A program made the position numbers and the translations under genes. The notes under the pieces were generated by a model. The model was given only the letters and a program-made list of their open reading frames with translations, made no database searches and was not told the DNA's origin. A DNA stretch of 64,000 bases from positions 2,046,001 to 2,110,000 of the forward strand of contig NZ_CP108488.1 in the NCBI RefSeq assembly GCF_035987325.1. Direction: 5' to 3'. Below, piece by piece: positions 37,148 through 48,442 of this stretch; the first letter of the stretch is position 1; each line of letters starts with the position of its first letter. The DNA is from Streptomyces sp. NBC_01244. Lineage in GTDB: Bacteria; Actinomycetota; Actinomycetes; Streptomycetales; Streptomycetaceae.

Positions 37148-37834
37148 TCAGTGGTTGCAAGCCCAGGGCGCAGCGGCGATCGCCGCACCCGCCTGGTCAC
37201 GCAGCGTGCGTACGGCTGCCGCCGGATCGACCGCTCCGTAGACCGCGCTGCCCGCCACGAACACGTCCGCGCCGGCCTCCGCGCACCGCTCGATGGTCGT
37301 GGCGGAGACCCCTCCGTCGACCTGCAGCCACAGCTCCAGGCCGTGCTTGGAGATCAGCTCCCGGGTCCGGCGGATCTTGGGCAGCATGATGTCGAGGAAG
37401 GGCTGACCGCCGAAGCCGGGCTCCACGGTCATGATCAACAGCATGTCGAGCTCGGGAAGGATGTCCTCGTACTGCTCGATCGGCGTCGCGGGCTTCAGCG
37501 CCATGGACGCCCGCGCCCCCTTGGCCCGGATCTCCCGCGCGAGCCGCACGGGCGCGGCGGCGGCCTCGGCGTGAAAGGTCACGGAGCCGGCACCGGCCTC
37601 GATGTACTGGGGGGCCCAGCGGTCGGGGTCCTCGATCATGAGGTGCAGATCGAGCGGGATGTCCGTGGCCCGGCTCAGCGACTCCACGATCGGCACGCCG
37701 AGGGTGAGGTTCGGGACGAAGTGGTTGTCCATGACGTCGACATGCAGCCAGTCGGCCCCCTGAACGGCCTTCGCCTCTTCGGCGAGCCGGGCGAAGTCGG
37801 CGGACAAGATGCTGGGATTGATCTGAACGGCCAT
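37148..37834 (-). CDS. rpe: Ribulose-phosphate 3-epimerase
   Basis: The product is 228 aa, a complete TIM barrel. It shows [13 protein letters not shown], the metal ligands in [36 protein letters not shown] and [10 protein letters not shown], ending VAGSAVYGA. It interconverts ribulose 5-phosphate and xylulose 5-phosphate in the cytoplasm. It lies upstream of the SorC-type regulator. Between it and the VOC gene are low-complexity GGTGGTGGG sequence and the left arm of a large inverted repeat. Confidence 0.95.
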
Positions 37835-37919
37835 GCCCCAAGCGTGCCATGCCGCCAACGCCTTCCGGCCACTACCCCGGAACTGGGGGTGGAGGGCGGG
37901 AGCGGGGGTGGTGGTGGGC

Positions 37920-38247
37920 GTGCTTGTGCTGCGGGTGGGGTGGTGGCTTTGACAGTGGTTCGGGGGGCGTCCCGGTAGGGAAGTGTGGGGAGGAGCGGCC
38001 TCGTCTGACATGCGCAGCCCCCAAGGGCCGGTGGTCATCTGGACACGGCCCCGGCAGGACCGTGACCTCGGCCGGTACGAACGCGCGGGGCGATCAGAGC
38101 ATCCAGGACCGGGCGCCTGAACACCCTTCCCGTGACCGTCGGCCGCCACCATGAGCGAGAGAGTGACGAGAAGGGCTTCAGGGTCGGTGGGCCCGACAGA
38201 TCGCTACACACTCCCACTCGGCCAAGCGACTACCGACCGTCCGTGGC
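37920..38247 (+). repeat. Left arm of a large inverted repeat flanking the VOC gene
   Basis: Two blocks are present: 37920-37977 (58 bp) is the exact reverse complement of 39460-39517, and 37978-38247 (270 bp) is the reverse complement of 39043-39312 with three mismatches. The arm is intact here but interrupted by 147 bp on the right. It contains short open frames but no protein I recognise. The near identity implies recent duplication or continuing gene conversion. Confidence 0.95.
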
Positions 38248-38268
38248 CGAGGGGCGAAGAGGGAAGGA

Positions 38269-38315
38269 ACTAATCAAGTTTGACTAGTTGAGATGCTGGT
38301 TCTACGGTCGGAGGA
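38269..38315 (+). promoter_or_regulatory. Sigma-70-type promoter with overlapping palindromic operator, leaderless transcript
   Basis: A 20-bp palindrome, ACTAATCAAG TTTGACTAGT (38269-38288), has one mismatch per half and is AT-rich against its surroundings. A -35 TTGACT (38280-38285), a 17-bp spacer and a -10 TACGGT (38303-38308) place the start of transcription at about the ATG at 38315, so the mRNA is probably leaderless. A repressor bound to the palindrome would cover the -35. Confidence 0.6.
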
Positions 38316-39022
38316 TGAACGAGAAACTAGCCGCGATGCTCCCCTGCAGGTCCATCCCTGAGACAGTCGACTTCTACAAGGCCATAGGTTTCGAGGTCAC
38401 GTTCTACCAAGAACGTCCGTACGCCTATGCCGTCGTGCAGCACGGTGAAGTCGAGTTGCAGTTCGCGGCATTGAAAGGCTTCGAGCCGGCCGCTTCGTAC
38501 GGCGCGTGCTACATCACGACGGACGACGTCGATGGCTTGTACGCGAAGTTCCGCAAGGGACTGAAGCAAGAACTCGGCAGGATCCCGACCCGTGGCCTCC
38601 CCCGGATCGGTCCGCTGAAGGACACCACCTACGGGATGCGGCAGTTCATCATGGCCGACCCGGGCGGCAACAGCATTCGCATCGGCCAACCGATCAGCGA
38701 AGACTTCCACCACTCACCGGTTCCGAAGGAACCGGTGGCCAAAGCCCTCCACATGGCCTCACTCCTCGGGGATTCCAAAGAGGACTACGCAGCCGCCGCC
38801 AAGATCCTCGACCGCCTCCTCTCCTCCGACGTGCCTCCCCCGTCCCGCGTCAAAGCCCTGATCCTCCGCGCCGCCATGGCCGTCCACCTGGGCGACACCC
38901 CTCTAGCCGCCCGCCTCCTGTCCGAGGCCGACCAGATCCCCCTCCCGGCCACCGACCGCATCTCCCTGGCCGACGATCTCCTCCGCGCCGAGGATCTCCG
39001 CGACAACCTCTCCGATAGTTGA
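38315..39022 (+). CDS. VOC-fold protein with C-terminal helical domain, carried between inverted repeats
   Basis: The product is 235 aa. Residues 1-130 are a bleomycin-resistance/glyoxalase-like domain (LPCRSIPETVDFYKAIGFEV, VELQFAALKGFE, FIMADPGGNSIRIGQP). Residues 140-230 form a helical repeat-like domain (AKALHMASLLGDSKEDYAAAAKIL, RAAMAVHLGDTPLAARLL). The gene uses rarer Streptomyces codons (CTA, ATA, TTG, AAA) more than its neighbours do, suggesting transfer. A drug- or carbonyl-binding resistance function is likely from the fold but not proven. It is bounded on both sides by 328-bp inverted repeats. Confidence 0.82.
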   Translation: MNEKLAAMLPCRSIPETVDFYKAIGFEVTFYQERPYAYAVVQHGEVELQFAALKGFEPAASYGACYITTDDVDGLYAKFRKGLKQELGRIPTRGLPRIGPLKDTTYGMRQFIMADPGGNSIRIGQPISEDFHHSPVPKEPVAKALHMASLLGDSKEDYAAAAKILDRLLSSDVPPPSRVKALILRAAMAVHLGDTPLAARLLSEADQIPLPATDRISLADDLLRAEDLRDNLSDS

Positions 39023-39042
39023 CAGAAGACCTCCCTAGATCA

Positions 39043-39517
39043 GCCACGGACGGTCGGTAGTCGCTTGGCCGAGTGGGAGTGTGTAGCAATCTGTCGCGCC
39101 CACCGACCCTGAAGCCCTTCTCGTCACTCTCTCGCTCATGGTGGCGGTCGACGGTCACGGGAAGGGTGTTCAGGCGCCCGGTCCTGGATGCTCTGATCGC
39201 CCCGCGCGTTCGTACCGGCCGAGGTCACGGTCCTGCCGGGGCCGTGTCCAGATGACCACCGGCCCTTGGGGGCTGCGCATGTCAGACGAGGCCGCTCCTC
39301 CCCACACTTCCCTCCCGGCCGTTCCCCGGGGGGATCCCGGAAGTCTTGTGGCTTTTCGGCGTGGGTCGGTCGGTCAAGGGTGGCCGAAGGCCATCGCGAA
39401 GCGACGCGACCGAAGGGAGCGCCCTTGAGGGACCGGCCCACGCCGAAAGAACACTGGACTACCGGGACGCCCCCCGAACCACTGTCAAAGCCACCACCCC
39501 ACCCGCAGCACAAGCAC
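39043..39517 (-). repeat. Right arm of the large inverted repeat, interrupted by 147 bp
   Basis: 39043-39312 pairs with 37978-38247 and 39460-39517 pairs with 37920-37977. The segment 39313-39459 has no counterpart in the left arm. The outer end stops 2 bp before the TGA of the WYL regulator gene (39520-39522). Confidence 0.95.
39352..39449. mobile_element. 98-bp palindromic (MITE-like) element inside the right arm
   Basis: It has about 28-bp imperfect terminal inverted repeats, CTTTTCGGCGTGGGTCGGTC at the left and GGACCGGCCCACGCCGAAAG at the right. A central part also carries small palindromes (TGGCCGAAGGCCA). It encodes nothing. It accounts for most of the extra 147 bp of the right arm. 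No clear target duplication is seen, so mobility is not established; it could be a miniature inverted-repeat element or a structured intergenic repeat. Confidence 0.45.
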
Positions 39518-39519
39518 AC

Positions 39520-40542
39520 TCACCCGCAGCCCACCGCCCCCTCCTCGCTCCCCCCCGCCCCCCGAGGCAACCCCCCATAGCGTGCCGCGACCGCCGCAGC
39601 CCGGTCGTGCAGCAACGTGCGCAACGACTGCGGGGCCAGGGCTTCCCCGTCCATGCCGAGCTGCCACAGGGCCCACTGGGCATGTCGTGAATCCTGGAAG
39701 GTCACCTCCAGGCGCAGCCAGCCGTCCGCGTCTGCGTCGGGCTCTTCCGCACGGACCGCCAGTGCGGTGTTCAGCAGGTCTTCCCGCCGCGCCGGGTTCA
39801 CCCGGACCAGCACGACGATGTGGTCGCCGCCGGAGAGGAACTGCGCGGAGCGTTCCCGCCAGATCCGGTCCAGGTCGACCCGGTTCGGTCGCTGTGCCGC
39901 TTCGGGGAGTTCCTCGGCGGCCAGCACGCGCGACAGCCGGTAGGTGCGGTCCTCGCCGGACTTCGTGGCCAGCAAGTAGCCCCGGTCCCGTACGGTGACC
40001 AGCCCGATCGGGTCCACCGTGCGCCACTGTGGCGGCTCGCCCGTGGCCGCGTACTGGATCCGCAGCTTGTGTCCGGCGAGCACCGCGCGCCGGACCTCGA
40101 CCATCGTGGTTCCGGGCACCTCCTCGGCGACGAGCCGGCGCGAGAGCAGATCGGCCTCCGGGTCCACGAGAAATCGCTGGGCCGCGTCGCTCGCCGTGGC
40201 CCGGTGGCTCTCGGGCAGTGCGTCGACCACCTTGCGCATCGCCGAAGCGAGCGCCGAGCCCAGGCCGAACACCTGCTCGCCGCGCCCCGACCCGGCGGCC
40301 AGCAGGGCAAGGGTCTCTTCGTGGTTCAGGCCGGTGAGCTCGGTCCGGAATCCGGGAGACAGCGCGAAACCACCGTGTCGGCCGCGTTCCGCGTAGACCG
40401 GCACCCCGGCAGCCGACAGCGCCTCGATGTCGCGCAGCACCGTACGGGTGGACACCTCCAGCTCGCGGGCCAGCGTGTCCGCAGTCAGCCGACCGCGCTG
40501 ACGCAACAGCAGCACCAGCGAGACCAACCGGTCTGCGCGCAT
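39520..40542 (-). CDS. YafY-type transcriptional regulator with HTH and WYL domains
   Basis: The product is 340 aa. The N-terminal HTH is RADRLVSLVLLLRQRGRLTADTLARELEVSTRTVLRDI. A WYL ligand-binding domain lies at about 135-210 (LRIQYAATGEPPQWRTVDPIGLVTVRDRGYLLA), with a WCX extension to about 320. The ATG at 40542 has no ribosome site; instead GATAAT (40551-40556) sits 8 nt upstream, so translation is probably leaderless. It is divergent from the RidA-like gene, with a perfect palindrome between them. Transcriptional control of itself and the RidA gene is likely. Confidence 0.87.
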   Translation of the reverse strand: MRADRLVSLVLLLRQRGRLTADTLARELEVSTRTVLRDIEALSAAGVPVYAERGRHGGFALSPGFRTELTGLNHEETLALLAAGSGRGEQVFGLGSALASAMRKVVDALPESHRATASDAAQRFLVDPEADLLSRRLVAEEVPGTTMVEVRRAVLAGHKLRIQYAATGEPPQWRTVDPIGLVTVRDRGYLLATKSGEDRTYRLSRVLAAEELPEAAQRPNRVDLDRIWRERSAQFLSGGDHIVVLVRVNPARREDLLNTALAVRAEEPDADADGWLRLEVTFQDSRHAQWALWQLGMDGEALAPQSLRTLLHDRAAAVAARYGGLPRGAGGSEEGAVGCG

Positions 40543-40562
40543 GCAAAAACATTATCGGAATA

Positions 40563-40581
40563 CACGACAGAGGGTGTCGTG
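40563..40581. promoter_or_regulatory. Perfect palindrome CACGACA-N5-TGTCGTG, probable operator of the WYL regulator
   Basis: Seven-base arms are separated by GAGGG. It covers the expected -35 region of the WYL regulator promoter (-10 GATAAT at 40551-40556) and is about 120 bp upstream of the RidA-like gene, so it could control both. Confidence 0.55.
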
Positions 40582-40631
40582 ATTCGCTGCGAGGCTCGTC
40601 AACAGAACAACCGGCGGCGCCAACGGGGCCA

Positions 40632-40692
40632 CCGCACCCCCACCCCCACGCACGCACCCACACCACGCACCCACACCACCACCCACCCGATG
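40632..40692 (+). repeat. CACCC/CACACC low-complexity tract in the RidA-like gene leader
   Basis: Runs of CACCC and CCACAC make up almost all of the 60 bp before the ribosome site GGAGA. The strand bias (nearly no G) is extreme. It could be an unstructured leader or simple-sequence expansion. Confidence 0.6.
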
Positions 40693-40702
40693 GAGACCAG
40701 AC

Positions 40703-41104
40703 ATGGCAATGCAACGAACCGCAGTCAACCCGGTGACCTGGTCGGTCGACATGGGCTTCAACCAGGGCGAGGTCGTCTCCGGCCAGACCCGGACCCTGTA
40801 CCTCTCGGGGCAGACCGCGATGAACGCGGACGGCAAGCCCGAGCACGACGGGGACATGGCGGCGCAGTTGGCGCTGAGCATCGACAACGTGGAGGCCGTG
40901 CTCGCCGAGGCAGGCATGTCCCTGGCGAATCTCGTCCGCCTCAACGTCTACACGACCGACGTCGACGTGCTCTTCCGGCACTACGGCGTGCTGGCGGCGC
41001 GGCTGGGCGCCGCCGGGGTGGCGCCGACCACCACCATGCTCGGCGTGACGCGGCTGGCGATCCCCGGCCAGCTGGTCGAGCTGGAGGGAACCGCCGTCGC
41101 GTAA
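40703..41104 (+). CDS. RidA/YjgF family protein
   Basis: The product is 133 aa with the trimeric RidA fold: LYLSGQTAMNADGKPEHDGDMAAQLALSIDNVEAVLAEAG, then LVRLNVYTTDVDVLFRHY, ending TMLGVTRLAIPGQLVELEGTAVA. Archetypal RidA proteins deaminate reactive enamines/imines, using an arginine at about the position of R in GVTRLAIPG. The start ATG 40703 follows GGAGA. It is divergent from the WYL regulator, a common pairing. Confidence 0.85.
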   Translation: MAMQRTAVNPVTWSVDMGFNQGEVVSGQTRTLYLSGQTAMNADGKPEHDGDMAAQLALSIDNVEAVLAEAGMSLANLVRLNVYTTDVDVLFRHYGVLAARLGAAGVAPTTTMLGVTRLAIPGQLVELEGTAVA

Positions 41105-41112
41105 CGCGACCT

Positions 41113-41149
41113 CGGCTACCCGGCTACCCGGCTGCCCGGCTACCCGGTC
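41113..41149. repeat. Octamer tandem repeat CGGCTACC at the rsmB end
   Basis: CGGCTACC is repeated four times (one unit with a single change). It overlaps the rsmB stop codon on the minus strand and fills the short convergent gap with the RidA-like gene. Confidence 0.7.
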
Positions 41150-48247: not shown

Positions 48248-48442
48248 AACGCTCCCTGGGGTTGCAGCGGCTGCTGGCTGAAATATTGGTGGAACCACAT
48301 CGGAGGCTGCGCCCGATCACGTTCCGGCTGCAGTTTATCGGTCGCCACCGTTCGCCGGACCACCCGTCTCGCCCTATGGGAGCCGTGTGACCTGCGACAC
48401 TCCATTCTTACTCAAGGATCAGTCTGCGGAAAGAGCCTCCGC

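Follow-up and report, generated by a model that had tools for sequence, protein, structure and literature searches.

We consider it fairly probable that a gene for a VOC protein in Streptomyces, together with the long inverted arms that frame it, is one long-arm cassette that a trans-acting enzyme inserted as a unit and whose arms are kept alike by gene conversion. The cassette lies in a 64,000-nucleotide stretch of DNA from Streptomyces sp. NBC_01244 (contig NZ_CP108488.1), the whole of which we analyzed and refer to as the window; the genome it comes from is called its own genome, or G000. Accessory genes of Streptomyces are rapidly gained and lost, often without a recognizable mobile element nearby. 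If mobile, polar gene-framing arms with a branched fold and varied cargoes would represent one route of this turnover, and their common fold would provide a handle for finding the enzyme.

The framed gene at the window locus

The two arms at this locus share a 58-bp block, identical between them (37920–37977 and 39460–39517), and an inverted 270-bp inner block with three mismatches, as a preliminary description of this DNA had reported (Table 1). Its distances also hold: the gap between the left block and the rpe start (37834) is 85 bp, on the upstream side of rpe, and that between the right block and the stop of the WYL gene (39520–39522) is 2 bp. The continuous 328-bp arm that it described applies to the left side only; on the right, the blocks are split by 147 bp. 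The second arm match has an E value of 6e-136, far above chance, and weaker arm similarity extends to about 37885 and 39552, the latter within the WYL gene. In an alignment of nine own-genome copies, the 147-bp block is present in the right arm and in six others, and the ninth copy ends before it. Because these copies carry the block, the left arm would most simply have lost it; the near-repeats CCGGTAG and CCGGGAG border its place there and may have bounded the loss. An assembly artefact is unlikely, since the arms differ from one another and the same framed gene is found in two other assemblies.

Table 1. Positions of the cassette, its parts, and its neighbors in the window, and of related loci in the own genome
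Feature	Position	Strand	Remark
Left arm	37920..38249	+	58-bp outer block joined directly to 270-bp inner block; 147-bp hairpin block missing
Right arm, full form	39040..39517	-	inverted relative to the left arm
147-bp hairpin block	39314..39460	-	shared by the right arm and six further own-genome copies; missing from the left arm
57-nt cloverleaf core	39373..39429	-	outer stem TCAAGGG/CCCTTGA enclosing three triloop hairpins
Cargo gene, VOC protein (235 aa)	38315..39022	+	between the arms
Flanking gene rpe	37148..37834	-	
Flanking WYL-domain regulator	39520..40542	-	last codons overlap the outermost arm similarity
Paired loci in own genome	window, 4.18 Mb, 6.57 Mb		
Single-arm loci in own genome	2.99, 4.21, 5.59 Mb		

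The single gene that the preliminary description placed between the arms is indeed there, and its product has the glyoxalase/bleomycin-resistance fold, with a C-terminal TPR match that falls below Pfam's cut-off. The codon use described as atypical proved only mildly so (GC at third positions of 0.83, against 0.87–0.95 in five neighbors), and the suggested role in resistance was not borne out: the protein scores 42 bits against the 210-bit cut-off of a bleomycin-binding family and resembles bleomycin-binding proteins only distantly. Beyond the own genome and two others that carry the same framed gene (G281 and G098), no VOC homologue exceeds 59% identity, and the 27 that we fetched all lack an arm match within 1.5 kb.

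We scanned the arms of the window for coding content. The four reading frames that overlap them contain no transposase domain, in agreement with the earlier statement that no transposase is present, and their one Pfam match lies below its cut-off, so the arms were dropped as candidate coding genes. An Rfam 15 scan of the window gave no arm match and one chance-level match (E 0.54) inside the cargo; at the gathering score, there was no match at the window cassette, nor was there any Rfam match in 10 related loci. The window also contains a Streptomyces-metK RNA (RF03063; 101 bits, minus strand, 48252–48372). The labels rpe, rsmB, RidA, LysE, sugar regulator, lipoprotein, MFS, and DinB-like are provisional throughout, some of them being taken from the preliminary description.

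A dispersed family with fixed polarity and varied cargoes

The own genome contains nine arm-length matches at six loci (Table 1). We ran a strict 38-nt core pattern, allowing up to three mismatches, on 199 congeneric genomes and obtained matches in 13 of them, with 96 cores in total and none with the reversed control; this pattern undercounts, as diverged copies in G063 were missed. Wherever two of these cores lie within 5 kb of one another, they follow in the order plus then minus (19 of 19). An exact-pattern scan of named genomes returned 83 stretches, 82 of them titled Streptomyces and one "Actinobacteria bacterium OV450," and the same order holds in all 13 two-core stretches; some strains are common to both sets. 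Inverted repeats of at least 60 bp occur in 36 of 39 core-bearing stretches and in 17 of 26 in a second set (three stretches common to both), and self-comparison found inverted repeats in 44 of 80 stretches, drawn from the 83, with the provisos that some unpaired stretches sit at contig ends and that some of the repeats found exclude the core itself. The window arms comprise 328 bp of matched sequence, and arms elsewhere in the family reach 600 bp.

In a covariance-model search of 394 genomes from 137 genera of the class, 87 genomes and 30 genera gave matches, counts obtained with a model that had one erroneous row; the corrected model scored 20 fetched loci at 59.8 bits or more. Of 14 loci fetched from outside the genus, L341 alone is paired; the other 13 lack an inverted partner within 1.5 kb. 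At five loci of other actinobacterial genomes (L334, L335, L340, L342, and L346), the cloverleaf near position 1501 forms a single repeat and stands atop a longer stem of the type GGGGCCGCCCCTCC ... GGAGCCTCTGCGGCCCC; the three of these that were scanned have no Rfam match. The core was also found on plasmids of one Mycobacterium and two Streptomyces. Three of the six records from the plasmid search match the VOC gene alone (H1–H3) and three match short arm or core stretches (H4–H6), with no annotated transposase feature within 6 kb of the plasmid matches. The arms had no match in phages, and viral contigs searched with two core patterns gave none either.

The window locus lies at 22% of its 9.5-Mb contig. 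Across four genomes (G000, G098, G062, and G158), 2 of 33 element loci fall in the outer 20% of either chromosome side (binomial p about 1e-5), a statistic that leaves out G107, G078, G012, G004, and fragmented genomes; the four cores of G012 lie in the final tenth of a contig that shows no telomere hairpins at its ends. Such avoidance of the ends by the elements of these four genomes is unusual for Streptomyces mobile DNA.

The cargoes are diverse. Elsewhere in the family, framed genes encode GNAT, GntR/UTRA, phosphotransferase, aminotransferase, GyrI-like, HAD, NUDIX, MarR, DNA alkylation, and beta-lactamase-fold domains, as well as an aldo/keto reductase with TetR and PadR with a hydrolase. 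One scanned cargo is a DDE transposase, which may be a passenger, and the cargo of a sister cassette in the own genome has no Pfam match. In S. lavendulae CCM 3239, the arms frame a two-gene unit (L183:5285-5964) that resembles a toxin–antitoxin pair and includes a PIN-domain match below Pfam's cut-off. The centres measure from about 120 bp up to about 3 kb, and many short centres contain no gene by a simple codon-position rule. Three gene-less copies in G062 are 94–95% alike over about 1.1 kb in unrelated flanks; G/C runs at gene-less elements obscure the reading of target duplication.

Site history and evolution of the arms

The sister cassette at 6.57 Mb provides the best evidence for insertion. 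In G012, 20 bp separate its flanks, a clean empty site; the corresponding distances of 169 bp in G062 and 131 bp in G063 leave no room for the cassette. The sequence CCCCTACC occurs on both sides of this cassette and may be a target duplication, a single case in G/C-rich sequence. The L136 site in G012, considered as another empty site, was not clean, and a search through WYL homologues did not find rpe within 1.5 kb of them. The preliminary description's term "non-autonomous cassette" accords with this empty site, the dispersed family, the varied cargoes, and the transposase-free arm frames. We found no transposase or recombinase tied to the arms and observed no movement in any strain.

That description also spoke of a recently duplicated segment. 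A recent origin is not supported: the VOC cassette is present between rsmB and rpe in three genomes (G000, G281, and G098), with arms that have diverged to 77–86% identity. Nor is it an old structure fixed in all relatives, the converse possibility raised there, as the VOC gene is present at 3 of the 32 rpe loci viewed (30 of them to 1.5 kb on each side, plus G098 and G281). Gene order in G281 is the same as in the own genome (rsmB, RidA, WYL, framed VOC gene, rpe), and in G098 the framed gene lies between rsmB and rpe without WYL and RidA. The rsmB–rpe spacer of G012, whose rpe is 98% identical to that of the own genome, is short and holds neither arms nor VOC gene; G063 and G062 have different genes there, as read by eye. 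Across genomes, the spacer (37835–41139 in the window) contains the VOC cassette, WYL and RidA, lipoprotein-like or MFS-like genes, or nothing, and it looks like a spot of gene turnover. At two other loci, the sister-cassette cargo is found within arms (G000, G098, and G345 at one, G062 and G197 at the other); its copies at the two loci are only 71–73% alike and may represent two acquisitions.

The proposal that the inverted repeats flip the gene found no support in the alleles at five orthologous loci, where cargo orientation relative to the flanks is constant. These are the VOC locus (G000, G281, and G098), the sister-cassette locus (G000, G098, G345, and G070), a second locus of that cargo (G062 and G197), a GNAT locus, and a DNA-alkylation locus (both in G000 and G098). 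The only hint of inversion is in G034, where an arm-less homologue of the GNAT cargo has the opposite orientation beside the same neighbor. Cassettes appear to decay by losing one arm or the hairpin block, the window's left arm being an example. The DNA-alkylation cassette has only its left arm in G000, only its right arm in G098, and both in strain H27-H1. In G070, the sister cargo sits at the same place without arms, which we read as arm loss, with a short stretch like the inner arm end that is possibly a stub; alternatively, the arms may have been gained around a resident gene. In G281, an IS110 transposase gene (identified by Pfam; L309:6760-7866) lies inside the rpe-side arm beside the cloverleaf core, and IS110 may target the cloverleaf hairpin.

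Comparison of the inner 279 bp of 22 arm copies suggests that the arms evolve in concert. Mean identity is 89.2% within G000 (36 pairs) and 88.1% within G098 (55 pairs), against 81.6% between the two genomes (99 pairs; maximum 87.8%). The left and right arms of the VOC cassette are 98% identical in G000 and likewise in G281, and 82–84% identical between these two genomes; the flanking genes rpe, sugR, rsmB, and WYL of G000 and G281 are 95–97% identical and the VOC gene itself 94%. Left/right identity of the inner arms is lower elsewhere, at 85% in the 6.57-Mb cassette of G000 and 83–91% in five cassettes of G098 (83% for the VOC cassette there, 86–91% for the others). With weak support, two arms of G098 are placed apart from the main group of that genome, toward other genomes, and this third genome shows the pattern weakly. 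Gene conversion is the likely cause of the similarity, because purely inherited arms would differ from one another at least as much as they do between species.

The cloverleaf, its likeness to telomeres, and other explanations

The most conserved part of the arm, the core listed in Table 1, folds as DNA with a predicted −17.3 kcal/mol (z −4.3). In a set of 40 distinct 57-mers, 97.5% of cells are paired, and 119 of 120 loops read T-N-C, where three or four different bases occur in the middle of the loop. Eleven natural variants, among them some that differ in stem length and one that comes from another family of the order, have 97.8% paired cells and four pairs with changes on both sides. Control slides gave no two-sided pairs at any offset, and of 500 shuffles, 5 reached four such pairs and none reached the covariation score. 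We propose that the trans-acting enzyme would recognize the folded ends of the arms and insert the unit as a whole.

On the opposite strand, T-N-C reads G-N-A. Published Streptomyces telomeres have a clover-leaf fold with hairpin loops that, on the 3′ strand, are mainly GAA, GGA, and GTA (PMC8743542); two telomere hairpins have been described as closed by sheared G:A pairs and as Tap-bound (PMC4513846). In G000, G098, and G062, the chromosome ends share both the loop pattern and the outward polarity of the arms. Counted from outer to inner, triloop hairpins in the arms comprise 74 TNC, 1 GNA, and 29 others, mostly one repeated core and thus not independent; the corresponding counts are 30, 1, and 6 for six telomere ends and 37, 39, and 516 for the background. 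These six telomeric-looking ends come from 16 fetched contig ends; the count leaves out the telomeric-looking G000 C2 and nine more, seven without telomere-like tip hairpins and two (G158 3′ and G015 5′) with some.

We tried the genome's own telomeres as the sequence source of the arms and rejected them. No match between 72 arms and the 16 contig ends exceeds 43 nt (best, 18 nt with E 4e-4), and the covariance model on seven ends gave only 16 and 13 bits, both in one end. Because of these short matches and low scores, we regard the likeness as one of hairpin style and claim no descent. The arms share with telomeres several short GNA-type triloop hairpins on the strand whose 3′ end points outward and a clover-leaf (PMC8743542, PMC4513846). 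Unlike telomeres, which end a replicon, they are internal and duplicated around a gene, have no sequence identity to telomeres beyond the short matches, and carry the outer stem TCAAGGG/CCCTTGA and three hairpins.

Several other explanations were weighed against the insertion of whole cassettes. The greater likeness of arms within a genome than between genomes makes recombination among copies plausible, and the arms could act as portable homology, themselves spreading by recombination, with RecA-mediated crossing over in both arms swapping cargo between loci or species and no dedicated enzyme involved. We regard this as unlikely: the clean arm-free empty site and the gene-less whole elements in unrelated flanks are left unexplained. 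It is quite unlikely that the arms serve to shield a foreign gene, as transcription terminators or insulators, with mobility incidental. At least one predicted neighbor ends toward the element at 40 of 46 loci, slightly above a chance expectation of three quarters, and the fold of the cloverleaf is strong; however, some frames have no predicted gene, arms of hundreds of base pairs exceed what a terminator needs, and the core is without a T run.

The cassette might also be what remains of a gene molecule, linear or single-stranded, that was capped by telomeres; its cloverleaf ends would be bound by a telomere-type protein, and the unit would have integrated between linear ends. The predominance of TNC triloops in both arms and telomere ends and the published loops and fold fit this idea, but the arm matches to contig ends are short, the covariance scores low, and the elements scarce toward chromosome ends, and we judge it decidedly improbable. 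The least credible explanation, to which we give very little weight, is that an ordinary dispersed repeat inserted twice, independently, and flanked the gene by chance. Single arms do occur at three of the six own-genome loci; two independent repeats would nevertheless be expected in mixed orientations, and the explanation was dropped on the strict inward polarity of every pair. The cassette that has one arm in G000, the other in G098, and both in H27-H1 also speaks against it.

If the likeness to telomere hairpins is functional, gene mobility would be linked to the ends of linear chromosomes. A broader conjecture, unlikely as it stands, is that Actinobacteria have a gene-cassette system in which hairpin-capped units, either single-stranded or linear, carry accessory genes and have telomere-style cloverleaf ends recognized by a telomere-type or HUH-type protein, so that the chemistry of chromosome ends has been reused for gene exchange.

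Returning to the long-arm cassette, we compared it with known systems; the literature outside subscription journals and preprints yielded no description of such cassettes. Like mobile insertion cassettes (MIC/MICE) and MITEs, it carries a passenger or an empty core between inverted repeats, with no transposase domain in the arm-overlapping frames of the window. Its arms, in contrast, are hundreds of base pairs long, contain a folded cloverleaf, and tend to evolve in concert; the inverted repeats of a qnrS2 mobile insertion cassette are 22 bp (PMC5444012). Since the repeats of the long-arm cassette are not short and we came upon no parent insertion sequence, we describe the cassettes as working like mobile insertion cassettes and keep them out of that class. 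A composite transposon would be flanked by insertion sequences with transposases, and the four arm-overlapping frames of the window do not encode any.

Integron gene cassettes tie diverse small accessory genes to folded single-strand recombination sites. The present cassettes differ in having two inverted arms each and in occupying scattered loci, with no array at the loci viewed. Foldback elements, mainly eukaryotic, have long inverted arms, a variable centre, and cargo. The cassettes may be likened to these for their long inverted arms and cargo; here, the elements are bacterial and have a conserved branched core.
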